In this document: piece by piece, positions 1 through 15,918 of the stretch
Layout of the letters: each line of letters begins with the position of its first letter
Position numbering within the stretch: the stretch's first letter is position 1
Source: Paracoccaceae bacterium
GTDB lineage: Bacteria > Pseudomonadota > Alphaproteobacteria > Rhodobacterales > Rhodobacteraceae
Direction of reading: 5' to 3'
NCBI GenBank assembly: GCA_902543185.1
Contig: CACBXB010000015.1
Location: forward strand, 1 to 42,568
DNA length: 42,568 nucleotides
Notes under the pieces: generated by a model
Database searches by the model: none
What the model saw: the letters and a program-made list of their open reading frames with translations, nothing else
Told to the model about the DNA's origin: nothing
Translations under genes and position numbers: made by a program

Positions 1-315
1 TTAACCGCTGAAATTGCTCAAAATTCACCCTAATTTTTTGCGACTATATGTTTTTACATTGGTGGAGACTACAGGATAATATGTCACAACTAACAAGGCA
101 ACAATTTTAGAAGAAATTTTTGACTATTTTATATCTAAGGCAGGTAACATGAGTTCTACTAACTGCAACTGAACTGAGCTGAGCTGACAATTTCATAAAC
201 ATTTTTTATCGAGAGAAAGAATTTTAGTCCTTGCATATCTTCTGTGCAATATAGCTTTTTATTTTAATTGCCAATAATCACAAAGAGTTTATGCTTTTAC
301 GAAAAGGTATTTCAA
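1..315. other. Intergenic region upstream of the first Rieske gene
   Basis: I see no supported gene in this left edge. Short leftward and rightward readings are closed quickly by stops. Around 165-188 there is a small imperfect CTGA/GAGCT repeat tract, which I cannot assign. A promoter for the following oxygenase gene is expected here, but I found no convincing -35/-10 pair. The DNA is A/T rich, as expected for an intergenic region. Confidence 0.5.
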
Positions 316-1512
316 TTGGGTCAAGAAAATATAAACATACCGAACGATTGGGATAGATCAGGCCTTCCAGCCTGGAGCTTTTTCAACAAGGAAATGTTTG
401 AAGCTGAAAAGGATTTACTTTTTAGACGCCATTGGCAGCTTATCTGTCATAGCAACGATATACCGAAACCAGGAGATTTCATAACTTGGAATTTAATTGG
501 CGAACGAGCCCTGGTTATTAGAGGTAAAGATAGAAAAGTTAGAGCATTTCATAATTTGTGCAAACATCGTGGTTCGCGGGTAATAGCCGACGACGCAGGA
601 ACATGTAAATCAACAATAACTTGTCCCTTTCATGGCTGGACTTATAATCTTGACGGCACTTTAAGGGGTGCCTCACAACCATCATCTCTTCCCAAACTAG
701 ACCCTGTTGAATATGGCCTACCCCCTTTAGAAATGGACATATGGAATGGCTTTATTTTTGTTAGATTTCAGCCTGGACCACAGCCTGCACTTTCAGCAAT
801 TTTAAAAAAATTTGACAACGAAGTTTCACAGTACGAACTCTTTGATCTTGAACCTACCGGAGAAGGTTTCTGGACAGAGAAAATACATGCCAATTGGAAG
901 TGTGTCCGCGACGTTGATAATGAAGGCTACCATGTTCCTATGGCGCATCCAGGACTGCATGATCTATTTGGTCAAAATTATTACGATGAGCCGATAGAAG
1001 GCGGTCTATCTAGATCTGTTGGATCTTTTAGTTCCGGGATTGGACGCCTGTGGAGCGTGAGAAACTATAAAAAATTGCTGCGCGCCAAAGATACTTTGGA
1101 CGAAACTCATAAGAAATGTTGGCTATACATCGGCGTTTTCCCAAATCTTGTGTTTGGCCTATACCCAGATTCAGTAATCTTCTACCAAGAGTATCCATTA
1201 GAAAATGGAAAAACTATACAACGCGGTGGTAATTATAAATTTGCAAAAGAAAATCGTGAAATGAGAATTTCAAGGTACCTGAGCATGAGAATTGATCGAT
1301 TAACAAGTAAAGAAGACGAACAGTTGATCGAATGGTCTTGGGAAGCAGCATTCTCCAGCGCTTACGAAGGGGTGTTGTTATCTGATTTGGAGTATGGGGT
1401 GAAAGCATACCACGATACTTTAAAAAAATATTTCCCTGTTCTATCAGGTCCGGAACCAGAGACCGGTAAACTGCTGCAGGCAAATGAACGACTACTTGCT
1501 AAAAAAGAATGA
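316..1512 (+). CDS. Rieske 2Fe-2S aromatic-ring/quaternary-amine oxygenase, large subunit
   Basis: This is a cytoplasmic Rieske mononuclear-iron oxygenase alpha subunit. Counting from the TTG at 316, the Rieske ligands are C82, H84, C103 and H106 (CKHRG and CPFHGW). The mononuclear iron site is DNEGYHVPMAH, with H206 and H211. In this family electrons pass from the cluster to the iron, and many members start N-demethylation or hydroxylation of betaine-like compounds. The frame is open from a TTG at 268, but I prefer 316 because AAAAGG precedes it by 8 nt and homologues begin just before the LPAW segment. It converges on the GcvT-like gene. No dedicated reductase gene lies next to it. The substrate is unknown; the family call is secure. 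Confidence 0.9.
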   Translation: MGQENINIPNDWDRSGLPAWSFFNKEMFEAEKDLLFRRHWQLICHSNDIPKPGDFITWNLIGERALVIRGKDRKVRAFHNLCKHRGSRVIADDAGTCKSTITCPFHGWTYNLDGTLRGASQPSSLPKLDPVEYGLPPLEMDIWNGFIFVRFQPGPQPALSAILKKFDNEVSQYELFDLEPTGEGFWTEKIHANWKCVRDVDNEGYHVPMAHPGLHDLFGQNYYDEPIEGGLSRSVGSFSSGIGRLWSVRNYKKLLRAKDTLDETHKKCWLYIGVFPNLVFGLYPDSVIFYQEYPLENGKTIQRGGNYKFAKENREMRISRYLSMRIDRLTSKEDEQLIEWSWEAAFSSAYEGVLLSDLEYGVKAYHDTLKKYFPVLSGPEPETGKLLQANERLLAKKE

Positions 1513-1670
1513 AGATCAATTGAACAATTATTATTGGCAATATACTAGCTGATGCCGAGAAATCTTGAAAACTATTAACTCTATTTAGCTTAAGGTAGTT
1601 AATCTGAAAACTGCTAAATTCTCTCCGTGAGATAAAGAGTCTACCGGGAAAGTGAGTAATATCTCATGGG

Positions 1671-2888
1671 TCAAAAATTGACTGGTGGACAAGAGGATCT
1701 CCTTGCCAAATTGATAAATGGTGGCTTTACTATAGAGACTTTTTTCATAAGTTTATAATATTGTAACTCTTTCAAAGAGTATATTTCGACCCATAAGTTT
1801 TCCATTATGGATTTTGATGAGCCCAATTTCAATTGAGCAATAGCTATAGATTTTTTAGCCATTGGCGACCAAACAGCAGAAGTTACAGTACCAACCTCAT
1901 CTTTTTTGTTGTAATAAATAATTGATCCCTCGACTGGTTCTTTTCCATCTATTTCTAAAGCATAAATTTTGAAAGCTTTACCGTTTTCCAACTCACTATT
2001 TACAATAGCCTTCTTTCCATTGAAAAATCCTTTGTCCAAGTCAACTAACCATCCAAGACCAAGATCGTCAGGGCGCCTACATCTATTTGACCTTATCGCG
2101 TGATCAGATGAAATAAAATCAATGTTAGCCACTATAAAACCTGCTTCTATTCTAGCCATATTTAGAGCGTTATATCCAATCGCCGTCAGTCCATGATTTT
2201 TGCCTGCGGCCCAGATTTTCTCAATAATTTCATTAGCCGCATTATTTTTCATAAAGATTTCGTAGCCTAAGTCTCCGGTAAAACCAGTTCTAGAGATCAT
2301 AATTGGATAATTCGAAATTTTTGCTTGAATAAGATGGAACGGCTTCAAATTATCAATCCTGTTAACCCCTAAAAGGCGGAGAATTGCAGCAGAAGTAGGG
2401 CCCTGAAGGGATATCCCACAGATGTGCTTACTCTCATCAATAATTTCAACATCAAAACCATGTGAGGTATCAATCAGCCAAGGAAGATGCTTTTCCTGAG
2501 AACACAATCGAAAGTCATTATCCGAAATCCTAAAAAGCGTTCCATCATCAATTACAAAACCCTCCTGATCACACCACAAAGTATACTTAACAGTGGCAAC
2601 ATTCTGTTTGGCAACATCTCTCACAGTGAGTTTGTTTAAAAAATCTTCAGCCTGTGGCCCTATAATTCTATATTTGTTTAAAGGACTGATATCGAAGACA
2701 CTACAAGTAGATCGGATAGAGAAATATTCCAACTCCTCGTCCGATAAAATTGTTGGAGATTTGTATCCATTCCAATTATACCAATGACCCTCAGTTTCTT
2801 GCTCAGCAAAAAAATCATAAAAAGGTGACCGGAAAAGTGGTTCGCTAAATGTTATGTCCCTATCTTTTCTCTCTTTTGACTTAGTCAT
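1671..2888 (-). CDS. GcvT-like aminomethyltransferase (folate-binding)
   Basis: This 405-residue protein has the T-protein/GcvT fold, including a VIDD segment near residue 115 and a C-terminal GcvT domain. Family members transfer the one-carbon unit from a methylated amine, or from an aminomethyl adduct, to tetrahydrofolate. Free-standing copies are typical partners of sarcosine, dimethylglycine or DMSP-type demethylation. It is not the glycine-cleavage T protein in context: no gcvH or gcvP is nearby. Its ATG overlaps the stop of the upstream FAD oxidoreductase by four bases (ATGA), so it is the third gene of a leftward operon (6065 to 1671). I infer that it captures the methyl group or formaldehyde released by the oxidoreductases or Rieske enzymes. 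Confidence 0.87.
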   Translation of the reverse strand: MTKSKERKDRDITFSEPLFRSPFYDFFAEQETEGHWYNWNGYKSPTILSDEELEYFSIRSTCSVFDISPLNKYRIIGPQAEDFLNKLTVRDVAKQNVATVKYTLWCDQEGFVIDDGTLFRISDNDFRLCSQEKHLPWLIDTSHGFDVEIIDESKHICGISLQGPTSAAILRLLGVNRIDNLKPFHLIQAKISNYPIMISRTGFTGDLGYEIFMKNNAANEIIEKIWAAGKNHGLTAIGYNALNMARIEAGFIVANIDFISSDHAIRSNRCRRPDDLGLGWLVDLDKGFFNGKKAIVNSELENGKAFKIYALEIDGKEPVEGSIIYYNKKDEVGTVTSAVWSPMAKKSIAIAQLKLGSSKSIMENLWVEIYSLKELQYYKLMKKVSIVKPPFINLARRSSCPPVNF

Positions 2889-4447
2889 TTACTACTCTCT
2901 CGTAAAATCTTTTTTGCAGCATTCAAACCTGACAAGCCAAAAAGATTACCCCCTGGATGAGTGCCTGCTCCACAAATAAAAAGGCCATCAATTGGGGTGG
3001 AATAATCTGACACATCAAATGTCGGCCTCAATGAATAAAGACTATCTATTTGCAATTCACTGTGGTGCCAATGACCCCCAGCAACGAAGTATTTTTTTTC
3101 AGTTTCATTCGGAAGTAAAAGGCTTTTAAATAAAATACTCTTTGTAAATTCAGGAGCCCACTTTTGAATTGTTGTAATAACCTTATTCATCAAAACTTGC
3201 TTTGACTTTTTTGGTTCACCTTTCGGCGTATATGGCGTATTCTGAATACAAATGGAGGCCGTAACTGCTCCATTTAGAGACGACCCAGAGGTAATCTTAC
3301 TGAAATACATTTCAAAATTAGGATCAGAAGGAAGTTCATTATATTTAAGAGAGTTAAAGTTACTTTCTACCGATTCCAGGGACGGAGCATAAACGTATCG
3401 GCAGTTTGATTCTAAGTTTTGCGAAGCGTGAAGCTTTGGAAATTCCTCCAAAATGATGTTGAGCTTACTGGTATTTCCTGAACACCTGAGAGCTTTAATC
3501 CGTCGTGTTAGATCAGTCTCCAGATTTTTAGGACCTACCAAGTCAAGAAAAGTGTTCACTGGGCTGATAGAAGAGACAATGGTTTTTGCAGAATATTCCA
3601 CTCCATTTTCTAGCTTTACGCCAGTCGCCACTGAGTCCGATATATTAAGTGAACTGACCTTGCTTTTAAAAAGGAAATCTACTCCATTTTCCTCAGCTGA
3701 TTTAAATAAAGCATTAATAAAACTGGTAACGCCACCATTAATAGATAATGATTTCTCTTCGTAGGAAGATTTCATTTGTGAAAGTTTATATAGTAAACCT
3801 AGATAGGACGTAGGTGATCTGGGTCCTAATTTTATTCCTAATGTTGAATCAAAAGAAATTAGTCCTTTGAGAGAAGATGTTTCAAGTTCCTCTTCCACTA
3901 AATCGGCAATGCACATAGTAATCATTCGTAAAAGTTCTTGGAATTGTTCTTTACCTTGCAACCTCAATTTTGCTGCTGTCATAATTAAATTGGCTTTACT
4001 AGCAAATGTTTTTTGATTTCTTCCAACAGGAATTTGTGATGCCAATTTTTGAAAGAGATGGCTCTGGTTAAAAAACTTCTTTCTGAGTTCTTTCCATCTT
4101 CTGAATTCGTCCTCTCTTATACCTTCTATACTTTTTCCAAATTCACTGCCAAATACAATATCGTCATTTTTTAGGCTCAGGCCTACGGTCTTCAATCCAT
4201 CTTCATTAAACAAAAGCTCATATTTGTTGAGCCCCAAATCTTGCACAACATCTTTTGAAATACCAAGTGCATTACTAGCCAATTCCGGAGCTTGAAAACC
4301 TTCGAATAAAACTTCATTCCTCGCCATTCCACCATATGTTTCGCTAGCTTCAAGTAAAAGAACTCTCCTTCCAGAAGAAGCCAACTTTGAAGCTACGATG
4401 AGACCATTGTGTCCAGCCCCAATTACGATAACATCATAAGACTTCAT
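2885..4447 (-). CDS. Phytoene-desaturase-like FAD/NAD(P) oxidoreductase (second copy)
   Basis: This is a COG1233-type FAD oxidoreductase of about 520 residues. An N-terminal Rossmann motif (GAGHNG, residues 10-15, then an acidic residue about 20 on) binds FAD. The C terminus has the GLFICGAGTHPGG FAD-contact motif. The frame continues upstream to 4480, but I start at the ATG at 4447 because AGGGA sits six bases before it and the next residues lead straight into the Rossmann strand. It overlaps the upstream paralogue by 14 nt and the downstream GcvT-like gene by 4 nt, so translation is probably coupled. No carotenoid genes are present, so a desaturase role in pigment synthesis is unlikely. An amine or ring oxidation role is inferred from the neighbours. 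Confidence 0.87.
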   Translation of the reverse strand: MKSYDVIVIGAGHNGLIVASKLASSGRRVLLLEASETYGGMARNEVLFEGFQAPELASNALGISKDVVQDLGLNKYELLFNEDGLKTVGLSLKNDDIVFGSEFGKSIEGIREDEFRRWKELRKKFFNQSHLFQKLASQIPVGRNQKTFASKANLIMTAAKLRLQGKEQFQELLRMITMCIADLVEEELETSSLKGLISFDSTLGIKLGPRSPTSYLGLLYKLSQMKSSYEEKSLSINGGVTSFINALFKSAEENGVDFLFKSKVSSLNISDSVATGVKLENGVEYSAKTIVSSISPVNTFLDLVGPKNLETDLTRRIKALRCSGNTSKLNIILEEFPKLHASQNLESNCRYVYAPSLESVESNFNSLKYNELPSDPNFEMYFSKITSGSSLNGAVTASICIQNTPYTPKGEPKKSKQVLMNKVITTIQKWAPEFTKSILFKSLLLPNETEKKYFVAGGHWHHSELQIDSLYSLRPTFDVSDYSTPIDGLFICGAGTHPGGNLFGLSGLNAAKKILRESSK

Positions 4448-6065
4448 AAGCGTCCCTAATATCAGAGTTAGGCAAATCAAGATCCTTTAGTATTTCAACG
4501 GCAGCATTTCGGCCAGGAGCACCCATTACACCACCACCTGGGTGGGTAGATGAACCACACATATATAGACCTTTAATGGGACTTCTATATTGAGCATAAC
4601 CGGGTATTGGTCTGTTGAACAAAAGCTGGTCAAAAGTTAACTCGCCCTGAAAAATGTTCCCCTCAGTCAAACCAACCTCCTCTTCAAGCTCTTTGGGAGT
4701 TCTTACTTCCATATGTAGAATTTTATCTTTGAATCCCGGCGAATAATCTGCAATCTGTTGGATCACAGTTTCTCCAAATGCATCCTTATTCTCTTTAGTC
4801 CAATTTTTGCCTCCTACTTTTGGGGGACAATATTGAACAAAGCAACTCATGAAATGCTTTCCAGGAGGGGCCATGGTAGGATCTGTTAAAGTAGGTATCA
4901 TCATGTCTAAAAATGGATCCCGGGACCAAGTTCCCATTTTCCAATCATCGTAAGCTCTCTCCATCCTTTCAATACTGTCCGTGAAATGAATATCACCTTT
5001 TAAACATGGATTACTTTCTGAGACACCTAGGAATTTTGGCATACTATCAAGGGCGATATTAACCTTTCCTGATGAGCCACGTATTTTAAAATTATTCACT
5101 TTTTTTATAAAGTTTGGTGGCAGATGTTCAGGATCAGCTAATTTTAAAAATGTACGCTTTACGTCAGCATTTGACACAACATTTTTCGCCAAATACTCGT
5201 CACCATTTTTTAATATCACACCTCTAACTCTAGCGCCTTTAATATCAACTTTCTCCACCTCAGAATTGTTGAGTAACGTACCACCCATTGCTCTAAAGGA
5301 AGAAGTCAAAGCCTTTGAAATAGCTCCCATTCCTCCGCGGGCATAGCCCCACGCTCCGATTGAACCATCAACTTCGCCCATATAGTGATGCAGAAGGACG
5401 TATGCGGTACCTGGTGACATTGGCCCCAAAGCTGTTCCGATGATGCCTGAAACTGCCAGAGAAGCCTTTATTACTTCATTTTCAAAATATTCATCTAAAA
5501 AATCTGAAATTGACATAGTCCAGAATCGAACAGTATCAGCCAATTCACTAGCAGTTAAGTCATTTACTTTACGCAACAGATAAAGCATTTCTGAGAGATC
5601 TCTAAATTTAAAGCTCGCCGGATCTGGTGCAGTTCTCATTAAAAGTGGCTGAATAAATCTGCATTGCTTAAGAATATCCCTAGAGTATCTCGAATAAGAC
5701 TCGCTGTCTTTTACACTAAACCGCTCTAACTCTCGCTTTTTTGCCTGGTAGTTTCTGTAAGATGCAAGATAGTCACCATCTCTTGTGAATACCGCTCCGC
5801 CCTCTATGGCAACAATCTGTAGTCCATGTTTTGGCAACTCCAAATCTCGCATGATTTCAGGTCTAAAAAGACTGCAAACATAGGAACAGTTTGAATATAA
5901 AATTCCAGGATGGAGTTCACGACTAACCGTAGCACCTCCTATCCAATCATTTTTTTCGAGAACTAGAACGTTTAACCCTGCTTTTTGAAGGTAACACGCA
6001 TTGACCAAGCCATTATGACCAGAACCGATCACTATTACATCAAAGTTTTTTTCCACAGACTGCAC
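4434..6065 (-). CDS. Phytoene-desaturase-like FAD/NAD(P) oxidoreductase (first copy)
   Basis: This 543-residue protein is the first gene of the leftward operon and a paralogue of the next one. GSGHNG at residues 14-19 begins the FAD-binding fold, followed by VLEKNDWIGGA. The C terminus carries GLYMCGSSTHPGGG. The start is a GTG at 6065; a GTG at 6056 is an alternative, since the only purine-rich stretch (AGG) is close to the first. The tandem pair may act on successive intermediates or form a heteromer. The sequence shows the family and cofactor but not the substrate. The promoter is probably the TTGACG element in the inverted repeat near 6265. Confidence 0.87.
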   Translation of the reverse strand: MQSVEKNFDVIVIGSGHNGLVNACYLQKAGLNVLVLEKNDWIGGATVSRELHPGILYSNCSYVCSLFRPEIMRDLELPKHGLQIVAIEGGAVFTRDGDYLASYRNYQAKKRELERFSVKDSESYSRYSRDILKQCRFIQPLLMRTAPDPASFKFRDLSEMLYLLRKVNDLTASELADTVRFWTMSISDFLDEYFENEVIKASLAVSGIIGTALGPMSPGTAYVLLHHYMGEVDGSIGAWGYARGGMGAISKALTSSFRAMGGTLLNNSEVEKVDIKGARVRGVILKNGDEYLAKNVVSNADVKRTFLKLADPEHLPPNFIKKVNNFKIRGSSGKVNIALDSMPKFLGVSESNPCLKGDIHFTDSIERMERAYDDWKMGTWSRDPFLDMMIPTLTDPTMAPPGKHFMSCFVQYCPPKVGGKNWTKENKDAFGETVIQQIADYSPGFKDKILHMEVRTPKELEEEVGLTEGNIFQGELTFDQLLFNRPIPGYAQYRSPIKGLYMCGSSTHPGGGVMGAPGRNAAVEILKDLDLPNSDIRDAYEVL

Positions 6066-6446
6066 TACCTAAGTTGAAAAGTTAATTCTAACCACACCTT
6101 AACATTACAAAATAGCGAGTCAAAAAATTGATTATTATTTTATTGTAATAATTGAAGTTTTTTATTTTCAGATAAACTTAAGTTCCTATTATTGAAACTT
6201 GTTATAGAAAGCACGTATATTTTTCGGAACAACATGATGCATATTCTTCTTTGAACAACACTTCGTCAACGAATTATAGCTATTTTTCTTGACGAAGCAA
6301 AGCCATTAAGCATTATGGCTTTTTAGTGACAAATACCACTGACAGTAATTTAGTATGCTACTTGAGAATTGAAACGGGGATGAAAAATTTTTAGCTTAAC
6401 ATTTAAAGACGAAACAAAAAAGGGCTGGAAACTTCTATCTACTCCA
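6066..6446. promoter_or_regulatory. Divergent promoter region between oxidoreductase operon and ABC transporter
   Basis: No confirmed gene is present except the probable start of the permease reading frame near 6380-6446. The stretch is very A/T rich and holds two inverted repeats: 6261-6269 with 6289-6297 (CTTCGTCAA/TTGACGAAG), and 6301-6306 with 6315-6320 (AGCCAT/ATGGCT) followed by five T. The first repeat puts a TTGACG hexamer facing outward on each strand. Its layout suggests shared control of uptake and catabolism by one regulator encoded elsewhere. Confidence 0.55.
6261..6297. promoter_or_regulatory. Inverted repeat with mirrored TTGACG -35 elements (putative operator)
   Basis: Arms of nine bases match perfectly across a 19-nt spacer, and the spacer contains ATAGCTAT almost exactly at the symmetry centre. 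Rightward, TTGACG at 6289 is followed 17 bp later by ATTATG. Leftward, TTGACG reading down from 6269 is followed 17 bp later by GAATAT, a weaker match. Dual promoter and operator function is inferred from position and spacing only. Confidence 0.45.
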
Positions 6447-7253
6447 TTGGCGTTCAGCATCATTCTACTGGCAGCTCCACTGACGATGATGTTCCTATTG
6501 AGCTTTTGGACACAAGATTATTTAGTTCTAAACAAAACTTTCACTTTAAATAATTACATTGAAGCTTTTACACAGCCTGTCTACCAATTACTATTTTCGA
6601 GATCTCTGTACATTTCGCTAACGGTAACTTTTTTTACCGTTTTGCTGGCCTACCCAATGGCTTATTTTATTTCTTTTTATGGCGGCAACAGAAAAGCACT
6701 TTGGCTGTTCTTAATTACGATACCATTTTGGACAAGTTACCTTCTTAGAATGTTTTTATGGAAGGTCATTCTGGGATATAATGGCGTTCTAAATTCATTT
6801 CTGTTGTGGTTGGAAATGATAAGTGAACCCCTCACTTTTATTTTATATAATTCTAATGCCGTGATTATTGCGCTCACACATGGCTGGGCACCTTTTGCTA
6901 TTTTACCAATTTTTGTTTCCCTTGAAAAAATTGATAGATCCTTACTCGAAGCAAGTAGAGATTTAGGAGATGGACCAATTAAACAATTTTTTAGGGTAAT
7001 CCTGCCTTTATCAATGCCTGGTGTGGTAGGTGCCTCCCTAATAATTTTCATTCCCACTGTTGGAGATTACATCACACCTAAATTAGTTGGCGGTACTGAT
7101 GGCCTAATGATCGCAAATATGATCCAAGTCCAATTCTCTAAAGCAAATAACGCCCCTCTCGCTGCGGCTTTATCTGTTTCCTCATTAGTAATTGTAGCCT
7201 TTATCTCAATTGTTTTTGTTCTCTTCAACAAAAAATACTTAAGGAGGTATTAA
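6447..7253 (+). CDS. ABC transporter permease, PotB-like (polyamine/opine family)
   Basis: This inner-membrane permease has about six membrane segments and the cytoplasmic EAA loop (LLEASRDLGDGPIKQFFRVI). It is the first permease of a PotABCD-type importer. The 268-residue frame given starts at TTG 6447, but that begins inside the first membrane helix and has no ribosome site. Codons stay open upstream to 6384. A natural start would be the ATG at 6380, which is in another frame; removing one T from the T5 run 6388-6392 would join it and give a normal N terminus (MKNFSLTFKDETKKGW). An ATT start at 6387, seven bases after GGGG, is an alternative. So the gene is either mis-started or has a one-base indel. 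Confidence 0.85.
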   Translation: MAFSIILLAAPLTMMFLLSFWTQDYLVLNKTFTLNNYIEAFTQPVYQLLFSRSLYISLTVTFFTVLLAYPMAYFISFYGGNRKALWLFLITIPFWTSYLLRMFLWKVILGYNGVLNSFLLWLEMISEPLTFILYNSNAVIIALTHGWAPFAILPIFVSLEKIDRSLLEASRDLGDGPIKQFFRVILPLSMPGVVGASLIIFIPTVGDYITPKLVGGTDGLMIANMIQVQFSKANNAPLAAALSVSSLVIVAFISIVFVLFNKKYLRRY

Positions 7254-7254
7254 G

Positions 7255-8052
7255 ATGGGCCGTTCCGGCAAATTCCTCAAAATTTTTGCGGTTACATATT
7301 TGATATTTTTGTATGCACCAGCGTTACTGCTTCCAATATTTTCATTTAATTCAAGCCAGATTATTGCTTTTCCGTTATCAGGTTTTACCACCGGTTGGTT
7401 CAAAGCATTATTGTATCAAGAGACTTTACATGAAGCCCTAAAAAATTCACTTATTGTAGCTGCGTCATCAAGTATTTTTGCTACAATATTGGGCACACTA
7501 GCTTCACGCTCTTCAAGTAGGTATAATTTTCCCGGCAAACAATTTTCGCTAACTTTTATATTGGCACCACTGGTTTTGCCTGAAATAATAGTTGGTGTAT
7601 CACTTTTGATCGTACTAATTCAGCTCGGATTACCACTTAATCTTTGGAGCGTCGTTTTAGGCCATACTCTACTAATTATGCCGTTCTCAATACTCATCAT
7701 GAATTCTGCCTTTAACAATCTTGACATAAGTTTAGAAGAAGCATCTCTCGATCTTGGCGAAACGCCAATTGGAACCTTCCGCCGCGTGATCCTACCGCTG
7801 GTTTATCCTGGTATAATGGCTAGCTTATTACTAGGTTTTACGTTGTCTTTAGACGAATTTATAATAGCATTTTTCTTAACTGGAACAGAGACTACATTAC
7901 CAGTTTACATATGGTCATTGTTTAGATTTCCAAAACAATTACCGACTACAATGGCACTAGGTACAATTCTAATCTTGGTTTCGTTAATTTTGCTATCTCT
8001 TAGTGAGTATTTTCGAAGAAGAGCAGCAAAATCGCAAACGTCCTTATTGTAA
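7255..8052 (+). CDS. ABC transporter permease, PotC-like
   Basis: This is the second inner-membrane permease of the importer: 265 residues, about six membrane helices, and an EAA loop (LEEASLDLGETPIGTFRRVI) that docks with the ATPase. The ATG at 7255 lies one base after the preceding stop, and a full AAGGAGGT ribosome site sits about seven bases upstream, so the start is firm. It pairs with the PotB-like permease as a heterodimer. The family covers polyamines, opines and other cationic or zwitterionic amines, and the exact solute cannot be told from the permease sequence. Confidence 0.93.
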   Translation: MGRSGKFLKIFAVTYLIFLYAPALLLPIFSFNSSQIIAFPLSGFTTGWFKALLYQETLHEALKNSLIVAASSSIFATILGTLASRSSSRYNFPGKQFSLTFILAPLVLPEIIVGVSLLIVLIQLGLPLNLWSVVLGHTLLIMPFSILIMNSAFNNLDISLEEASLDLGETPIGTFRRVILPLVYPGIMASLLLGFTLSLDEFIIAFFLTGTETTLPVYIWSLFRFPKQLPTTMALGTILILVSLILLSLSEYFRRRAAKSQTSLL

Positions 8053-8074
8053 AATTTAAAGGAATTTTTAAACA

Positions 8075-9151
8075 ATGGTTAAATTAGTTCAGGTTGAAAA
8101 TGTCTTTAAAAGCTTTGGTGACGTTAATGCTGTGAATGGTGTTTCTTTAGACATTGAAGAAGGCCAATTCTATTCACTTTTAGGCCCTTCTGGTTGTGGT
8201 AAAACTACGCTATTACGACTAATTGCTGGCTTCGAAAAACCAACTTCTGGGCAAGTCTTTATCGATAATACTTCGATGGAAGGTATTGAGCCTAATTTAC
8301 GGCCAACAAATATGGTTTTCCAAAATTATGCTATTTTTCCGCATTTGAATGTAGAAGAAAATGTGGCCTACGGATTGCGAAACAAACGTGAAAATAGAAA
8401 CAAACAAAACAAACTTGTTGATGAAGCACTTGAGCTAGTAGGATTATCCGGTCTCAATAAACGTTCTGCTAATGCCCTTTCCGGAGGCCAAAAGCAGCGG
8501 GTTGCTCTAGCACGTGCGCTAATATTAAAACCAAAAGTTCTCTTATTAGACGAGCCACTCTCAGCTTTAGACAAGAAACTAAGAGAGCAGATGCAGTCAG
8601 AACTAAGACACCTGCAGCGAGCCGTTGGGATTACTTTTATACTTGTAACCCATGACCAATACGAAGCGCTTACAATGAGTGACAGAGTAGCCGTTATGTT
8701 CGATGGAAAGGTAGCACAAGAAGCTTCACCTAGAGATCTCTACGAACTTCCAACTTCACAAAAAGTTGCGTCTTTCATTGGAGAGATGACTTTTATTGAA
8801 GGTGAAATTATAGGTGAAAACAAAAATTTAAAGGTTCAGTCTGAAATTTTTGGCCAAATAAATATAGACAAGTCTCGGGTTTTTGGCCAATCATCTAAAA
8901 AGATTATTCTTGGAATACGGCCCGAGAAAATAACCATAGTTCCAAAAACTTCTCGATCAAAAAATTTAGTTTCTGGAAAGATAATTGATGTATCATACTT
9001 CGGCGAAACAACTAACTATAAAGTTTCATGCGGGACTATTGAAACTTTGACGATCTCGTCGCAAAATTCTGTTGGCCAGCCTAGTTATTCCGTTGGTAAA
9101 GAAATCCAGTTAAAGGCTGATTTGGATAATATAATAGCCTTTTCAGCTTGA
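8075..9151 (+). CDS. ABC transporter ATP-binding protein, PotA-like
   Basis: This is the cytoplasmic ATPase of the importer, 358 residues. Walker A is GPSGCGKT (37-44), the Q-loop is at Q83, the signature LSGGQ is at 135-139 and Walker B is LLLDE (156-160). The C-terminal third is a TOBE-type regulatory domain, as in PotA/MalK-like subunits. It follows the PotC-like permease by 22 bp with AAAGGA upstream. The gene ends at the first base of a strong hairpin terminator. All motifs are intact, so the subunit should be active. Confidence 0.95.
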   Translation: MVKLVQVENVFKSFGDVNAVNGVSLDIEEGQFYSLLGPSGCGKTTLLRLIAGFEKPTSGQVFIDNTSMEGIEPNLRPTNMVFQNYAIFPHLNVEENVAYGLRNKRENRNKQNKLVDEALELVGLSGLNKRSANALSGGQKQRVALARALILKPKVLLLDEPLSALDKKLREQMQSELRHLQRAVGITFILVTHDQYEALTMSDRVAVMFDGKVAQEASPRDLYELPTSQKVASFIGEMTFIEGEIIGENKNLKVQSEIFGQINIDKSRVFGQSSKKIILGIRPEKITIVPKTSRSKNLVSGKIIDVSYFGETTNYKVSCGTIETLTISSQNSVGQPSYSVGKEIQLKADLDNIIAFSA

Positions 9152-9186
9152 TTTCAGAGGCGAAGTTCGCCTCTGAAATTTTTAAT
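9151..9186. terminator. Bidirectional rho-independent terminator
   Basis: ATTTCAGAGGCGAA (9151-9164) pairs perfectly with 9166-9179, a 14-base inverted repeat with a one-base centre. It is followed by a T run on the plus strand and preceded by A/T-rich sequence on the other. It separates the transporter operon from the convergent binding-protein gene and can stop both transcripts. Confidence 0.85.
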
Positions 9187-9196
9187 TTAGTCCTAT

Positions 9197-10258
9197 TTAG
9201 AAGCCACTTTTAATGAGCTCCCATTCTTTAATCATTTTTTCCCTGAGAGCAGGGTCAGAAGGTTTCTGGAACAAAGAACCCTCAGTGTAACTTGCTAACG
9301 GCTCCCATCCATTTTCTTTACCAACAGTTGCCATGACTTCTTTATTCGTATGTCCGTAACCCCACTCAGTAACGATATATTCTGCAGAGGCGTTAGAAAG
9401 CCAAGCATCAAGAAAATCGTATGCTTTTTGTTCTGAACCAGGTGCATCTTTCATCATTGTATATCCACATACCCAAGTTGAAGAGCCTTCTTTGGTATCT
9501 CGTTTGAAGACTGTCTCCGGTGCGTCTTCTTCCCAACCGAGAGTAAATGCAACCTCATTCCACGTCCATTCTAAAAGAATTTCTCCACTCTTCATAAGCG
9601 CAGCACCTTCAGCACCGTCAGCATGATATTGTCTGACGTTCTTGTGCACTTTTCTTAAAAAATCCGAAGCCTTTTTAAAATCCTCATCCGTAGATTTGGT
9701 CCAATCCATAACTCCTACGGCCAGATAACCTAGCGCATAGGCATCGTCTACGTTATCAATGATTGACACACGCCCTTGAAATTTTGGATCAGCAAAGACG
9801 TACAACGAGCTGGCTTCTTCTGCAGATACTTCCTCAGCGTTGTATGTTAATGCTGTTGCGCCCCAATCTATCGGAAGTGCCCATTGAACTCCATCAACTT
9901 GAAAGCCCTCCATTCCAGCAAATCCCGGATCAACCTTGTCAAAGTTTGACAGTCTAGAAGTATCAATTGGTTTTATAATTCCTGCGTTTCGCCATTTTAC
10001 TACTGACTGCGAACAGGGATGCCCTAAGTCAGCCCGAAAACCTGCACGCACTTTTTGAAAAGCTTCTTCCTCATCTGAAAAGAAAGAATAAGTTGGCGCA
10101 TCGCCGTATTTTTTCATATAATCTTGGAAGAACATTTCGTCTTCATATCCACCCCAGTCGAACACCACCAGTTCACTGTCCGCTGCAAATGCAGAAGCAC
10201 CGAATGAAAATGCAGTTGCAGCCACCAGGTAACTTAAAGTTTTTCTCATTTTTCTCAC
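9197..10258 (-). CDS. Periplasmic substrate-binding protein, PotD/PotF-like
   Basis: This 353-residue solute-binding protein has a clear Sec signal peptide: basic MRKMRK, a hydrophobic core, and a likely cut after AFA at residue 25. The mature start (SELVVFDWGGYED) is typical of the spermidine/putrescine-binding family. It should deliver solute to the permeases encoded at 6.4-8.1 kb, although it is transcribed separately, toward them. The start is the ATG at 10258, with AGGAAG eight bases upstream; a second ATG nine bases on arises from a tandem ATGAGAAAA repeat. Separate transcription fits the higher dose normally needed for binding proteins. The ligand is unknown. Confidence 0.92.
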   Translation of the reverse strand: MRKMRKTLSYLVAATAFSFGASAFAADSELVVFDWGGYEDEMFFQDYMKKYGDAPTYSFFSDEEEAFQKVRAGFRADLGHPCSQSVVKWRNAGIIKPIDTSRLSNFDKVDPGFAGMEGFQVDGVQWALPIDWGATALTYNAEEVSAEEASSLYVFADPKFQGRVSIIDNVDDAYALGYLAVGVMDWTKSTDEDFKKASDFLRKVHKNVRQYHADGAEGAALMKSGEILLEWTWNEVAFTLGWEEDAPETVFKRDTKEGSSTWVCGYTMMKDAPGSEQKAYDFLDAWLSNASAEYIVTEWGYGHTNKEVMATVGKENGWEPLASYTEGSLFQKPSDPALREKMIKEWELIKSGF

Positions 10259-10457
10259 TTCCTTTTTAAGTTCATAGTCTAAGCTTCATACAATACTTTA
10301 ATTTGTACTGAGTCTAGAGAAATAGAAAGACTTAAATTTAGAAACACAGTCTTTATAGTTCAATTTTTTAAATTTTCTCTGACTTCAGTAGGTTGCATAG
10401 TGTGATACTGCACTGTAGCATCTTTAAAAATTCAAAAGCTAGAAGTAGATAAAGCCC

Positions 10458-11741
10458 TTGAGTGCACCTCTTCCAACTAACCCCGATATTGTTATAATTG
10501 GTGCTGGCTCATCGGGTCTTTCAGCAGCAAAAAAGCTTCAGGAACTAGGAAACTCGTATATAGTCTTAGAGGCTTTAGATCGTATCGGAGGTCGGGCTTA
10601 TACGGAGAGTGATATTCTTGGCCAACCTGTTGATCATGGTTGTTCTTGGATATCAGGCTCCGACAATAACTTCTTTTCAGATTTGGGTAAAAATAATAAA
10701 TTTACACTTGTGGACCACTCCAACCCAAAAATCGAAATGTTCGAAAGAGACGGTACAAAATCTCCAAAAGAAGCAATAAAAGAATACAATCAATCTGAAA
10801 TTATAATAAAAGAAATTCTTCGAGACACCGGCCGTAGAGGAATAGATATACCAGCATCAAGAATAATTCCAAAAGTTCCATATGGCGAATGTTTCCAGAA
10901 CTGGGAGGGAGCTTTAAACTACGCTGTTGATGTAGATCAAATATCAACAGCAGAATATTGGAATACAAAAGATACCCAACCAAGCTTTATAGTAAAAGAG
11001 GGTTTAGGTAGTTTAGTAGCTACATTAAACAACAACTTTCCTATCGCTTTCAATACAAGTGTACTTAATATAGATTATTCAGGTTCAGGCGTAAAAGTTA
11101 TTACTTCCAAGGGAACAATTTTGGCTAGGGCTTGCATTTGTACCGTTTCAATTGGTGTTTTGAAGTCCGAAAAAATAAAGTTTACTCCTACACTTTCCAA
11201 TAATGTGCAAAAGGCGCTTTCTGGTATTCAAATGGGGCTCCTTGTAAAAATTCCTCTTCTCTTCGATGGGAGTAGATTAGGATTTAGTGAAAATAGTTTC
11301 GTGCAATATGACATTGCTGCAAAAAATATTGGGAGTGGCTGCTATTTCTTAGCATGGCCAACTGGACATGACTATATAGTTGGGTTTATCGGTGGGCGAT
11401 TTGCCTGGGACTTAACGAAGCAAGGCGAAGACGGTATTGTGGAATACGCCCTTTCTAAACTCGAGTCTTTGGCTGGATGCGATATCCGTAAACATTTTCT
11501 AAAAGGATTTGCTTCCGATTGGGCAAATAATCCACTGACTAAAGGATCCTATTCTGCAGTTAAACCAGGCTGTTATGGCGCACGAGAGTTGCTTAGTGAA
11601 CCTATTGCAGAAAAGTTAATATTTGCAGGTGAGGCAACGGCAGGTGATTTAGCAGGTCTAGTGAATGGAGCATATGAGAGCGGTAAAATGGCAGCTACTC
11701 GAATATCCAAAATCATCAAACTTAAAAACAAGTCTCTTTAA
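10458..11741 (+). CDS. Flavin-containing amine oxidase family protein
   Basis: This 427-residue FAD enzyme belongs to the monoamine/polyamine oxidase family (COG1231). GAGSSG at residues 15-20 starts the FAD Rossmann fold, followed by LEALDRIGGRAYTE. The C-terminal FAD-contact segment reads IFAGEATAGDLAGLVNGAYESG. Such enzymes oxidise a primary, secondary or tertiary amine to an imine, which hydrolyses to an aldehyde plus an amine. No signal peptide is seen, so it is cytoplasmic. The start is TTG 10458 with AGAAG upstream. Placement between the binding protein and a betaine-type Rieske oxygenase supports a role in breaking down the imported amine. Confidence 0.9.
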   Translation: MSAPLPTNPDIVIIGAGSSGLSAAKKLQELGNSYIVLEALDRIGGRAYTESDILGQPVDHGCSWISGSDNNFFSDLGKNNKFTLVDHSNPKIEMFERDGTKSPKEAIKEYNQSEIIIKEILRDTGRRGIDIPASRIIPKVPYGECFQNWEGALNYAVDVDQISTAEYWNTKDTQPSFIVKEGLGSLVATLNNNFPIAFNTSVLNIDYSGSGVKVITSKGTILARACICTVSIGVLKSEKIKFTPTLSNNVQKALSGIQMGLLVKIPLLFDGSRLGFSENSFVQYDIAAKNIGSGCYFLAWPTGHDYIVGFIGGRFAWDLTKQGEDGIVEYALSKLESLAGCDIRKHFLKGFASDWANNPLTKGSYSAVKPGCYGARELLSEPIAEKLIFAGEATAGDLAGLVNGAYESGKMAATRISKIIKLKNKSL

Positions 11742-11850
11742 TTTACGGTTAAATTCTAAAAATATCTTTATGTCTTGACCAAATAAATAACTTAATTGCT
11801 CCCTTAATAATTTGCCAACTAATTGGAGCAGTATTTTTCATAAAAAAGCT

Positions 11851-13065
11851 TTAAGATTTAACATTTATTTTTTTTTCTAATTGTTTCACGTAACCAGCAT
11901 GAAACGCTTTAATGCCCCACTCCATGTTAGATAAAGGCCCTGGAACGTAGTGATCAGAGTTGACCCCTTTTTGATTAAGTCCAATGATGCGCTCATCGTC
12001 TTGTGATGTACAATGCCATAACCAGGTGAGATCTTCTAAGTTATAATCCAGACCCTCTTTGGCATCCTCTCTCACCATCCAAATTACCTCAATATCCGTA
12101 AGCTGAAGAGACCTTGGAATAAACCGATAGCCTATTACATGATCTGAATAAGATAAAAAGTTATTCAAAATACCAATTTGTAAATCAGTCGTTCCACCAT
12201 CAAAATCTTTAAGTTTCCCAAGTAGTGGCGCTAATTGTTTCCCGGACTTGCTACCAGTTTGATAGCCTTGAAAAAGGGGATAGCGGGAGAAATAAAAATC
12301 CATTTCTACATCTTTTGACCCAAGACCATTTATTTGAAGTTCGTCACCCGATAGTCCCACTTCAATACTTCTCTTAAGCATACAACTTTTCAATTCGATA
12401 TTGGCGTTTGATGGATCTTTTAAGCTGTGCGACTTCGAATACTCTAAATGTGCGGGTGCACAATGATAGCATTCCATGTAATTCTCCAAAGCCAATTTCC
12501 AATTAGCAGCTACTGGATAAATTTTGCTATGCACAATTTTTAAATTCTCAAATTCAAAAGGTTCAACCAAGGTCCCTAGTTTAAGTAAACCTTCGTCTAT
12601 ATTAGGTGGATCATCTGATATACAGACAAAAATCAGCCCGTGGAAAATCCGAAGATTAACTTTTTTTAATGAATGTTCTGATTTATCAAAGCTGTCTCCC
12701 ATTTCACGCGCAGCGCGTAGATTTCCATCAAGTTCATAAGTCCATGCATGATAGGGGCAGGCAAACACACGAGTATTTCCACTCTTTTCTAGACAAACTC
12801 TTGAACCTCTATGGCGACATACATTCAATAATGCATTTACATCTTTATTTTTATCACGAGCTACTATTACAGACTCATAACCGTAATCGAATAAGAAAAA
12901 GTCTCCGGTATTGGGAATTTGGTTTACATGCCCAACCCAAATCCAACTGTGGTTCCAATAGTGCTCGATATCCATCTTATATAACGTCTCAGACGTATAA
13001 AATTGGCGCGGGAGACTATGGGACACTTGGTAATTCGAAATTAGTTCCTTTAATTTCTCTTCCAC
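11851..13065 (-). CDS. Rieske oxygenase, glycine-betaine/choline monooxygenase-like
   Basis: This 404-residue Rieske oxygenase is of the GbcA/choline-monooxygenase type. Rieske ligands are C83, H85, C103 and H106. The catalytic site is ENYMECYHCAPAH, with iron ligands H201 and H206. The N terminus (LPRQFYTSETLYKMDIEHYW) is typical of betaine demethylases. In that family the enzyme oxidatively removes an N-methyl group, releasing formaldehyde, and needs a separate reductase; none is encoded nearby. The start is a GTG at 13065 with GGAG eight bases before it. It diverges clearly from the Rieske enzyme at the left end, so the two probably act on different substrates or steps. Confidence 0.9.
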   Translation of the reverse strand: MEEKLKELISNYQVSHSLPRQFYTSETLYKMDIEHYWNHSWIWVGHVNQIPNTGDFFLFDYGYESVIVARDKNKDVNALLNVCRHRGSRVCLEKSGNTRVFACPYHAWTYELDGNLRAAREMGDSFDKSEHSLKKVNLRIFHGLIFVCISDDPPNIDEGLLKLGTLVEPFEFENLKIVHSKIYPVAANWKLALENYMECYHCAPAHLEYSKSHSLKDPSNANIELKSCMLKRSIEVGLSGDELQINGLGSKDVEMDFYFSRYPLFQGYQTGSKSGKQLAPLLGKLKDFDGGTTDLQIGILNNFLSYSDHVIGYRFIPRSLQLTDIEVIWMVREDAKEGLDYNLEDLTWLWHCTSQDDERIIGLNQKGVNSDHYVPGPLSNMEWGIKAFHAGYVKQLEKKINVKS

Positions 13066-13512: not shown

Positions 13513-14610
13513 CTAATTTTGCCCCTCAATATTTAATCTCGCTGTTTTACTACTCTTGGATTGAAGCATTTTTATAATTTCTGTTAATTTTTCCTTATCT
13601 CCCAAACTGTTTACCGGGATAGAGAATTCAGAATTTGTTACAACATTCCCAAATCTCTCAAAAAGTTTTTGTCCAATAGTTTCAAAAGTACCTATTACTA
13701 CGAATTTTTCTAAAATCTCATCTGAAATCAGATCAGGTAATTGCTCCCATTTTTGTGCTCTAGATAAAAGTTTTGCTTCATTAGCGAGATCTTCTAAACC
13801 ATGATGACTAAAGGCTTTTATATATGAAGGTGTCGATAAATAAAAAGCAATTCGAGCACGAGCATCTTTAATCTTGGTTTGAAGCTCTTCTTCATTAGGC
13901 GCCGTAGCAATCAATGGCTTCATAGAAACTTTGAAGTTTTTTAACGACCTACCTTCAGCTTTGGCGCCCGCTTGTATTTGTGGGAGCATTTCCTGTTTTA
14001 TAAAAGATGGCGTACAAACTGGATGCGGCCTAACTCCATCAGCGACTTGGCCTGCCACAAAACACATATACTCATTCACTGCTGCCAGATGTATTGGTAT
14101 TTTAGGATGTTCAATTGGACCAGCATCAAAAAGAGGAACCATGAGGTTTAAATTGTAAAATTCACCCTGATAATCTAATTTACTGCCATTTTGCCATGTA
14201 TCCCAAACAGCCTTAACCGCTTTAACATAGTCTCTCATCCATGGACCTAATGGGTTAGCTTTAATTCCATATCGCCTTTCTATGTGAGCTTTTACCTGAG
14301 GCCCAAGCCCTAAAGTAAATCGACCTTTTGAAAACTTTTGTAAGGTCCAGGCACTTAGTGCCATCACTGTGGGACTTCTTGGGAAAGTTATTGTAACTGC
14401 AGTACCTATACCAAGAGATTTTGTAGAATTTGCCGCCAAGGTTAAAACCGTAAATGGATCGTCCTTAGTCTCTTCTGTCATAACAGAGGAATAGCCAATT
14501 TCCTCAACCAATTTAGATTGATCTGCAACTTTATGTATATCCAAAGGATCAGACGGGGTTCTCAAACCTGGGTCGACTTTTCCTAAAGGAAGTAAAGTTT
14601 CCATATCCAT
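13513..14610 (-). CDS. LLM-class (luciferase-like) flavin/F420 oxidoreductase
   Basis: This 365-residue TIM-barrel protein belongs to the bacterial-luciferase-like monooxygenase superfamily. It resembles the F420-dependent oxidoreductase subgroup, as seen in GYSSVMTEETKDDPF, GRFTLGLGPQVKAHIERRYG and the barrel-end FVVIGTFETIGQKL. The cofactor (F420 or FMN) cannot be fixed from sequence; Rhodobacterales are not classical F420 users, so FMN is as likely. The ATG at 14610 has AAGGA nine bases upstream. It lies 15 bp after the CoA-ligase-like gene, so the two form an operon inside the tRNA-Gly-flanked interval. They may process one carboxylic acid via its CoA thioester, but this is a guess. Confidence 0.85.
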   Translation of the reverse strand: MDMETLLPLGKVDPGLRTPSDPLDIHKVADQSKLVEEIGYSSVMTEETKDDPFTVLTLAANSTKSLGIGTAVTITFPRSPTVMALSAWTLQKFSKGRFTLGLGPQVKAHIERRYGIKANPLGPWMRDYVKAVKAVWDTWQNGSKLDYQGEFYNLNLMVPLFDAGPIEHPKIPIHLAAVNEYMCFVAGQVADGVRPHPVCTPSFIKQEMLPQIQAGAKAEGRSLKNFKVSMKPLIATAPNEEELQTKIKDARARIAFYLSTPSYIKAFSHHGLEDLANEAKLLSRAQKWEQLPDLISDEILEKFVVIGTFETIGQKLFERFGNVVTNSEFSIPVNSLGDKEKLTEIIKMLQSKSSKTARLNIEGQN

Positions 14611-14625
14611 TTAAATTATCCTTTG

Positions 14626-15918
14626 TTACTTTTCTCTTTGGTCTATCACTCGTATCGCTTTGCCAATAGATCTTTCAATACTGGCAGGTGGACGAATTAC
14701 TACTTTTGCCCGAACGCCAGTCCAGGCTTTGATATTTTCTTCCAAAGCAACCTTCGAATTTTGCACCTCTGTTGAGATAGCCTCAACCCTAGGTTCTACC
14801 CAAACTTCCAGTTCGTCAAGATTATGGCGTTTGTAAACATGGATCTGATATTGAGCAGAAAGCGCCGGAATTTTTAATATTTCTTCTTCAACTTGTGATG
14901 GAAAAATATTCACTCCACGAATAATAAGCATATCATCCGATCTTCCTTTAAACCTCTCGATACGTCGCATCGTTTTAGCGGTTCCAGGAAGGAGCCTGGT
15001 TAGATCTTTTGTTCTGTATCTAATCACCGGCGTTGCTTCCTTTGTCAGGCTCGTAATTACTAATTCGCCAAATTCGCCATCAGGAAGAACTTCACCAGTT
15101 TCAGGATCTATTATTTCAGGGTAAAAATGATCTTCCCAAATTGTAGGACCATCTAAATCCTCTAAATATTCTGAAGCCACTCCTGGCCCAATTACCTCAG
15201 ATATTCCATAATAATTTATTGCTTGTAAATTTAATCTAAAATTAATTTCGCTCCGCATAGCCTCAGTCCACGGCTCAGCCCCAACAAACGCTAATTTGAG
15301 TGATAGATCTCGTTTTACATCAATATTTTGTCTTTCAATTTCATCAGCTATGGTAAGTAAATAAGATGGCGTAATTGCAATAATATTGGGTTTTAAATCG
15401 ACTAAAAGTTGAACTTGTCTCTCCGTTTGGCCACCTGACACTGGTATTACAGTACAGCCAAGTTTGTGAGCGCCATCATGAGTACCAAAACCTCCAGTAA
15501 ATAGGCCATAGCCATACGATATTTGTATACAATCGCCTTTCTTTGCCCCGCCTACTTTCAAAGAACGACAGGTTAGCTGCGACCAAGTATCTAGATCATT
15601 TTTGGTATAACCAACAATTGTAGACTTTCCTGTTGTTCCACTCGAAGCATGAATTCTATGTATCTCATTTAAAGGAACAGCAAACATATCAAATGGATAG
15701 TTTGATCGAAAATCCTCTTTAGTAGTAAAAGGAAATTTAGAGAGGTCATAAATTGATTTTAAATCATCAAAGTGTAGACCTATTTTCTGACATTTTTCTT
15801 TAAAATAATTTAGATTTGAATAAGCGTTCGTTATTGTTGATTTAAGACCGGTAAATTGAATATCTCTAAGTTCATCTTTACTGATTTGGTCGAAGGCGTC
15901 AAATCTTAAACTAGCCAT
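14626..15918 (-). CDS. Phenylacetate-CoA ligase family (PaaK-like) adenylate-forming enzyme
   Basis: This 430-residue ANL-superfamily enzyme has the ATP-binding loop SSGTTGKST (92-100), the YGISEVIGPG motif near 240 and the hinge/C-terminal RGVNIFPSQVEEEIL segment, all standard for PaaK. PaaK makes phenylacetyl-CoA from phenylacetate, ATP and CoA. No other paa genes are present, so the acid used here may be a different aromatic or short acid. The length is normal and no frame damage is seen. It is the upstream gene of the two-gene cargo between the tRNA-Gly repeats. Confidence 0.9.
   Translation of the reverse strand: MASLRFDAFDQISKDELRDIQFTGLKSTITNAYSNLNYFKEKCQKIGLHFDDLKSIYDLSKFPFTTKEDFRSNYPFDMFAVPLNEIHRIHASSGTTGKSTIVGYTKNDLDTWSQLTCRSLKVGGAKKGDCIQISYGYGLFTGGFGTHDGAHKLGCTVIPVSGGQTERQVQLLVDLKPNIIAITPSYLLTIADEIERQNIDVKRDLSLKLAFVGAEPWTEAMRSEINFRLNLQAINYYGISEVIGPGVASEYLEDLDGPTIWEDHFYPEIIDPETGEVLPDGEFGELVITSLTKEATPVIRYRTKDLTRLLPGTAKTMRRIERFKGRSDDMLIIRGVNIFPSQVEEEILKIPALSAQYQIHVYKRHNLDELEVWVEPRVEAISTEVQNSKVALEENIKAWTGVRAKVVIRPPASIERSIGKAIRVIDQREK

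Follow-up and report, generated by a model that had tools for sequence, protein, structure and literature searches.

The window analysed here is a stretch of 42,568 nucleotides (G000:C15) from a 2.02-Mb Paracoccaceae genome that is 75% complete. Near its beginning lie genes for two Rieske oxygenases (RO1 and RO2), two CrtO/CrtI-like flavin adenine dinucleotide (FAD) proteins (CrtA and CrtB), a stand-alone GcvT-like protein, a flavin amine oxidase (AO) and an importer resembling PotABCD, termed type A. Genes were typed from open reading frames (ORFs) together with Pfam and NCBIfam profile matches, the best 25 NCBIfam families being considered for each protein, and the features are as follows.

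268..1512, plus strand: RO1, Rieske oxygenase alpha subunit (Pfam/NCBIfam, nearest PDB structure, linkage)
1671..2888, minus strand: GcvT-like protein, stand-alone, 405 amino acids (Pfam/NCBIfam; motifs RTGFTGDLGY and VIDDGT)
2885..4447, minus strand: CrtB, the second CrtO/CrtI-like FAD protein (start taken as ATG; the alternative TTG lies at 4480)
4434..6065, minus strand: CrtA, CrtO/CrtI-like FAD protein, first of the pair (Pfam/NCBIfam, modelled fold)
6447..7253, plus strand: PotB-like permease of importer type A (Pfam/NCBIfam)
7255..8052, plus strand: PotC-like permease (Pfam/NCBIfam)
8075..9151, plus strand: PotA-like ATPase (potA subfamily score 355.5 bits, cut-off 355.6)
9197..10258, minus strand: PotD-like binding protein, type A (alignment to PotD)
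10458..11741, plus strand: AO, flavin amine oxidase (closest to LSD2/LSD1 among solved structures)
11851..13065, minus strand: RO2, Group V-type Rieske oxygenase alpha subunit (ENYMECYHC; nearest solved chains 3vca, 4qup and 3n0q)

A preliminary description of this DNA had listed the same genes, and the ORFs and profile matches confirm them where it placed them. Its start for the first Rieske gene, 316, is an in-frame TTG; the gene itself stands, with the RO1 frame taken as 268-1512. Where it counted seven enzyme classes we find four (Rieske, CrtI-like FAD, GcvT and amine oxidase) plus the importer, and it had overlooked a class III aminotransferase, a TetR gene, an exchange of importer and oxidase, and a wide spread in Rhizobiales. 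The translational overlaps that it saw joining the CrtI-like genes and the GcvT-like gene are real: CrtA and CrtB share 14 bases, taking the ATG at 4447 as the CrtB start, and CrtB and GcvT share 4. No module protein passed a curated cut-off among its best 25 NCBIfam families, PotA falling short by 0.1 bit.

The CrtA-CrtB-GcvT trio is a conserved, linked unit

Relatives were collected by a CrtA profile scan of the genomes of 84,980 species, which gave at least 539; the best 80 loci were kept, and the species-scan counts are from these. Since loci were picked by CrtA similarity alone, the counts are unbiased toward linkage, and since many loci come from close relatives, they are not independent. 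CrtB lies directly downstream of CrtA in all 80 loci, and the GcvT-like gene comes next in 76; three of the other contigs (L085, L088, L104) stop short of it, and L091, a metagenome contig of 6.3 kb, is the only long-enough species-scan locus with other DNA after CrtB instead of GcvT. That DNA (4800-6321) is unlike the other loci, and the contig is perhaps misjoined. Neighbour counts refer to the 59 loci with full 10-kb flanks, in which the trio is present throughout (59/59), accompanied by a binding protein (56/59), PotABC (55/59), a small ORF (53/59), TetR (52/59), a class III aminotransferase (51/59), RO1 (38/59) and an S-adenosylmethionine (SAM) methyltransferase (36/59), with RO2 (4/59), a histamine-dehydrogenase-like enzyme (3/59) and AO (3/59) at the rare end. 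As controls, 20 stretches, each 18 kb long, were taken from genomes of the surveys; none held PotA with PotB/C or a Rieske gene and one held a GcvT-like gene; the linkage of the trio exceeds chance. The proposal that the CrtI-like pair, GcvT and PotABC form a conserved neighbourhood is thereby upheld, and because that neighbourhood is conserved, the outcome that the preliminary description had named as fatal to it, homologues scattered without linkage, does not apply.

A survey of the class gave a similar picture. It covered 385 genomes, our own included, and scored just the three or four best candidates in each; 17 other genomes carry CrtA at 49% identity or above (one is a fragment), a second FAD gene adjoins CrtA in all 17, and GcvT follows in 16, the remaining contig ending there. 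In the reverse direction, with our own genome excluded from the 385, the 20 GcvT-like matches closest to that of the window all adjoin a CrtA-like gene, both FAD genes being visible in 19.

The 14-base CrtA/CrtB overlap (ATG start, more than 400 open codons) recurs in 75 of the 77 loci long enough to show it, with a range that reaches from SAR116 to Mesorhizobium. Looser relatives (L156-L169, L175) have different overlaps or gaps, and Fuscovulum (L174) keeps the 14 bases; the 4-base CrtB/GcvT overlap is likewise found in Rhizobium SL42 and Shinella, going by annotated ends. We read these overlaps as selection for paired synthesis, and a complex is likely. Long open frames in G123, G419 and G048 that looked like fusions of trio genes were resolved into separate genes by a simple gene caller.

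Trios in several families (L164-L168, L033) have no importer or Rieske match at E 1e-8 in stretches of up to ~9 kb a side, which makes the trio the smallest conserved unit. A second unit, RO1 with importer A and the aminotransferase, stands without a CrtA match in G339 and G212, and a third, RO2 with the histamine-dehydrogenase-like enzyme and a type A importer, occurs in Leisingera without trio genes across 25 kb. The window combines the trio, RO1, importer A and RO2; AO replaces the histamine-dehydrogenase-like enzyme, and the aminotransferase is unlinked. In L033 (G052:C84, 4668-12795), genes resembling DmdA (349.9 bits; cut-off 410) and an ADP-forming coenzyme A (CoA) ligase come after the trio. 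On a Fuscovulum ytuae plasmid (L174, 25665-28917), a cupin of the dimethylsulfoniopropionate (DMSP)-lyase family, an amidohydrolase and a SAM methyltransferase close the trio/importer run; relatives of this methyltransferase are those recurring in the full-flank loci, with no obvious role.

We also considered whether these partners belong to CrtA-like genes generally. Pot importers do not: they were present in 3 of 27 paralogue loci (L170, L171 and L187, picked after an importer had been seen) and in 0 of 20 in the set picked otherwise. GcvT was found with all three tandem FAD pairs among the 27 (L034, L195, L200) and in 1 of the 24 others (L170, on the other strand), and the idea that it constantly accompanies tandem pairs was dropped upon meeting two further pairs, in genus g139, without it. 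In these (L182, 4878-8074, and L231, 8300-11500, from G419 and G150) a D-amino acid oxidase (DAO)-type gene is near, on the opposite strand. In L204, L205, L206 and Sphingobium TomTYG65 (L240, 8166-10958), which have no GcvT match close by, single CrtA-like genes (36-39%) adjoin Rieske genes like RO1 (34-42%), in what looks like a Rieske/CrtA-like partnership.

CrtA, CrtB and the GcvT-like protein score below named-family cut-offs

CrtA and CrtB are 26% identical to each other over nearly their full length. The closest curated model is CrtO, with scores of 309.3 and 155.1 (cut-off 1000); crtI_fam gives 127 and 64.6 (cut-off 238.1). AlphaFold models of the two (pLDDT 87.4 and 84.4) have the CrtO/CrtI family fold, the best PDB match for both being the carotenoid desaturase 4rep (TMq 0.75 and 0.72), and NicA2, putrescine oxidase and monoamine oxidase (MAO) are also high among the fold matches of both. 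Proteins of the CrtA group are currently annotated merely as "NAD(P)/FAD-dependent oxidoreductase".

The GcvT-like protein scores below the glycine cleavage T cut-offs (192.7 against 300; 147.8 against 235.85) and the DmdA cut-off (100.9 against 410). It is also far under those of the fused-type models (Tdm, 243 against 1100; soxA, 140 against 1164) and, at 405 amino acids, stands alone rather than as part of a fusion. Its best PDB match is trimethylamine N-oxide (TMAO) demethylase Tdm (142 bits), with dimethylglycine oxidase (DMGO), dimethylglycine dehydrogenase (DMGDH) and sarcosine oxidase alpha also matched. The motif RTG(F/Y)TGDLGY is present in 97 of 106 GcvT rows (at least 31% identity, some genomes counted twice) and DDGT in 94, and the window protein has both; RTG(F/Y)TGDLGY is a motif of the folate type.

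The Rieske oxygenases resemble enzymes of quaternary ammonium compounds

The solved structure nearest to RO1 is the carnitine monooxygenase CntA, aligned over residues 35-235 only; among the chains nearest to RO2, 3vca and 4qup are, we believe, the stachydrine demethylase Stc2. RO2 has a Glu at the bridging position together with Cys-x-x-Cys (LENYMECYHC) in 11 of 11 rows, a combination by the mononuclear iron site that PMC10952381 gives as a feature of some Group V Rieske members. RO1 has the bridging Glu and no Cys pair (DVDNEGYHV in 55 of 59 rows), and so departs from the Group V pattern. Both are under the GbcA cut-off of 670 (RO2, 303.8; RO1, 120.6). The likeness to quaternary-ammonium oxygenases that had been noticed earlier therefore holds, given the nearest structures of both proteins and the Group V signature of RO2.

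RO2 is linked to the trio within the genus of the window and in L161, L169 and L175, and AO only within the genus. The two had been presented as fixed parts, which they are not: none of the 72 species-scan loci outside the genus, some of them incomplete, has them, though relatives of RO2 lie near the trio in L161, L169 and L175. RO1 likewise failed as an exclusive partner of CrtA; all 8 records in a plasmid collection have CrtA or a CrtA-like gene within ~12 kb of it, yet the class survey contradicts exclusivity. A 9-kb stretch of L245 (G052:C83, 292-9092) brings together genes resembling dimethylformamidase, GcvT (28%) and the Rieske oxygenase RO1 (42%), along with two binding proteins that resemble type A at 35-39%. 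Beside RO2 in the window (13513-15918) are a luciferase-like monooxygenase and a phenylacetate-CoA-ligase-like gene, typed from translations alone; as candidate module parts they were rejected, having no match at E 1e-20 in any locus searched.

Importer types and amine-handling neighbours

Binding proteins were compared with PotD and PotF using ligand residues that we assume for those proteins. In all eight type A proteins the PotD aromatics W34, Y37, W229, W255 and Y293 are kept, E36 is Gly and D257 is Cys; D168 is Asn and E171 is Asp in all eight but the second Leisingera protein. The window protein accordingly has all five aromatics, with E36>G, D168>N, E171>D and D257>C, only E171>D being acidic, and thus lacks the acidic set of PotD. 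Six type B proteins have Asp or Glu at E171, Asp at D257, and Asp or Glu at E36 in five of six (Asn in L243); importer type B also keeps the acids aligned to PotF D247 and D278. Since the type A site has kept the aromatics of PotD and lost most of its acids, its ligand should carry fewer amines than spermidine. It would be less cationic than a polyamine, possibly a quaternary amine bound within an aromatic box; for type B, a diamine is still a possible ligand.

The earlier view that the neighbours are amine enzymes, an amine oxidase among them, is borne out. After LSD2/LSD1, the solved structures nearest to AO are bacterial amine oxidases and the polyamine oxidase FMS1. Five other genomes of the genus (G001, G002, G003, G012, G014) have importer A and AO, the latter cut by the contig end in G003; G007 and G009 instead have importer B, likewise of the polyamine type, and a histamine-dehydrogenase-like enzyme beside a nearly identical CrtA. 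This substitute is 64% identical to a Parasedimentitalea protein, which matches histamine dehydrogenase at 644 bits, trimethylamine dehydrogenase (TMADH) at 518 bits and NdpC (6-hydroxypseudooxynicotine oxidase) at 43-45%. The aminotransferase belongs to family NF005447, over the cut-off in Rhizobium and Parasedimentitalea copies; the nearest in the window's genome is unlinked, scores 616.6 against a cut-off of 618 and is 55-57% identical to copies linked in sister genomes.

Polyamine-type genes occur beside some of these units. In G339, RO1 and importer A share 19 kb with an agmatinase that passes its cut-off, a DAO-type oxidase, two aminotransferases and two genes of glutamine-synthetase type, of which the one scanned reaches 202 bits in the gamma-glutamylputrescine synthetase model (cut-off 650). 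Leisingera has an agmatinase over the cut-off beside a type B binding protein and near a type A importer, and L156 has a PuuC-like aldehyde dehydrogenase (555.6, cut-off 850). The window's genome, 75% complete, has a single agmatinase-family match, on another contig and below the cut-off. These neighbours in G339, Leisingera and L156 are suggestive only.

Distribution of the cluster

The best 80 loci come from the genus of the window, SAR116, other Rhodobacteraceae and, mostly, Rhizobiales. Among the matches listed, the closest relatives of CrtA are from Rhodobacteraceae single-cell genomes, for example AG-390-A18 (98%). Besides the window's genome, the genus has 15 genomes, of which eight contain CrtA at 96-98%, once as a fragment; one of the copies (L006; G009:C3:14610-16235) has an in-frame TAG, in one genome, and is a pseudogene or a sequencing error. 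CrtA was not found in three genus genomes that are 90-96% complete (G006, G010, G011), which indicates that the cluster is accessory. The CrtA tree joins the genus to SAR116 (100/99), with one Paracoccaceae metagenome copy (L087) adjacent; the copies of G033, which is of the window's own family, of Fuscovulum and of Parasedimentitalea stand apart. This arrangement suggests horizontal transfer. The plasmid collection has 21 records that match at E 1e-100, seven of them at 60% identity or above. Further along the window is a long run of minus-strand ORFs (20220-42248), many adjoining or overlapping, that ends near the window's end.

A possible pathway and its alternatives

The gene set is real, widespread and strongly linked. 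We consider the best single reading to be methylated-amine catabolism with folate-linked capture of one-carbon (C1) units, a judgement that is near an even balance. Put at its fullest, the module could well, though not quite probably, serve to break down an imported cationic amine, most likely N-methylated and of the polyamine or betaine type; we infer every reaction, their order, the complex and the substrate. The PotD-like protein and PotABC would import the amine, and RO1, with RO2 where present, would remove N-methyl group(s) with release of formaldehyde. CrtA and CrtB, co-translated and probably in a complex, would oxidise a further N-methyl to the iminium level, from which the GcvT-like protein would hand the C1 unit to tetrahydrofolate. 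AO, or the histamine/TMA-dehydrogenase-like enzyme in sister genomes, would perform another amine oxidation, and the class III aminotransferase would convert the freed primary amine to an aldehyde, to be oxidised in turn. A bolder idea, which we hold tentatively and regard as rather doubtful, is that CrtA, CrtB and GcvT may together be an N-demethylase of three parts, linked to folate and based on the CrtI/CrtO fold, as a convergent counterpart of DMGDH and sarcosine oxidase. On this view they would be an exchangeable alphaproteobacterial cassette, serving in both sea and soil pathways in which Rieske enzymes begin the breakdown of a methylated amine or polyamine.

Several observations weigh against such a pathway. 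CrtA and CrtB are nearest in sequence and fold to carotenoid desaturases and ketolases, not to DAO-type demethylases, and the GcvT-like protein is below the cut-off of every named family among its best 25. The distant trios L164-L168 and L033 have no importer or Rieske gene in the ~9 kb a side that was searched. RO1 at 50% identity or above is present in four genomes, two of which have no CrtA match (G339, G212) and one of which, G141, has it on a different contig from CrtA. No Rieske reductase was recognised in the module by Pfam or NCBIfam, the one PF00175 match of its genome lying elsewhere, and the conserved SAM methyltransferase by the trio has no place in the scheme.

Four other explanations were weighed. 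Plain catabolism of a polyamine or agmatine-type compound without N-methyl groups, in which RO1, the importer and the aminotransferase handle a diamine and the FAD pair and GcvT process a later C1-yielding intermediate, is unlikely: AO resembles polyamine oxidase, among others, agmatinase and glutamine-synthetase-like genes lie beside RO1 in G339, and importer type B, with its PotF-like acids (on the residue list assumed above), takes the place of type A in G007 and G009, but it is difficult to see a role for two quaternary-ammonium-like Rieske oxygenases and a GcvT if no methyl groups are involved, most of the polyamine acids are gone from the type A binding proteins, and the sole agmatinase-family match of the 75% complete genome is below its cut-off. 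We are equally sceptical that the FAD pair acts on C-C or C-H bonds of a lipid- or terpenoid-like compound, with the GcvT-like protein as an O- or S-demethylase (DmdA- or LigM-like). In its favour, CrtO (309 and 155 bits) is the closest curated model, both folds match a carotenoid desaturase best, the trio in G052 has a DmdA-like gene after it (349.9 bits against a cut-off of 410), and CrtA-like singletons adjoin RO1-like genes in L204-L206 and Sphingobium; the CrtO cut-off of 1000 is nonetheless missed by far, and the partners in orthologous clusters are amine importers and aminotransferases.

A further alternative is one of the known kinds of betaine route, for proline betaine, carnitine or gamma-butyrobetaine, in which the later enzymes would be unfamiliar. 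The nearest structures of RO2 (3vca/4qup, presumably Stc2) and RO1 (CntA) favour it, as does the Leisingera unit of RO2, TMADH-like enzyme and type A importer, with no trio gene annotated in 25 kb; we nevertheless think it quite improbable, as RO2 is in 0 of 72 species-scan loci outside the genus and RO1, without the Cys pair, aligns to CntA over residues 35-235 only. Homarine and trigonelline, the candidate substrates of the preliminary description, fit the Rieske enzymes, the N-methyl theme and the marine setting that we presume for the close relatives, but they are very unlikely: there is no pyridine-ring-cleavage gene among the neighbours typed, which are part of all neighbours, most of the best 80 carriers are Rhizobiales, and the recurrent partner is a class III aminotransferase, which points to a primary amine. 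No homarine gene cluster turned up in the open-licence literature; a homarine operon has reportedly been described.

Methylated-amine catabolism with folate-linked C1 capture would, if true, bring something new, the partnership of a stand-alone GcvT with a pair of flavoproteins of the CrtI/CrtO type, and would assign a function to proteins annotated just as oxidoreductases. The open-licence literature yielded no description of the cluster; subscription papers and preprints may contain one. According to the abstract of PMC13390433, methylated amines make up an important share of the dissolved organic nitrogen in the sea. A module found in Rhodobacteraceae, SAR116 and many Rhizobiales, with an importer whose ligand can be screened, would make one compound class testable.

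Comparison with known systems

The importer has all four parts of PotABCD/PotFGHI and keeps the PotD aromatic positions, and differs in that the type A protein has lost the equivalents of E36, D168 and D257 and all parts are under the PotABCD cut-offs. Of the Group V Rieske enzymes (CntA, GbcA, Stc2), RO2 carries the ENYMECYHC signature and is nearest to 3vca/4qup; RO1, though nearest to CntA, differs in its absent Cys pair and in the limited extent of that alignment (residues 35-235). Histamine dehydrogenase, TMADH and NdpC represent the class of the Parasedimentitalea relative of the AO substitute in G007 and G009, and no such enzyme is in the window's module. With the carotenoid desaturases and ketolases (CrtI, CrtD, CrtO), CrtA and CrtB share sequence family and fold; here, however, scores are far under the cut-offs, the gene context is of the amine type, and the genes form an overlapping tandem with GcvT. 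With DMGDH/DMGO, sarcosine oxidase alpha and Tdm the module shares a GcvT-type domain proposed to pass the C1 unit of an oxidised N-methyl group to folate. In DMGDH and sarcosine oxidase GcvT is fused to a partner domain, as it is in Tdm, and the PDB chain lengths of 793-965 agree; in the window it is separate, beside two CrtO/CrtI-like proteins.

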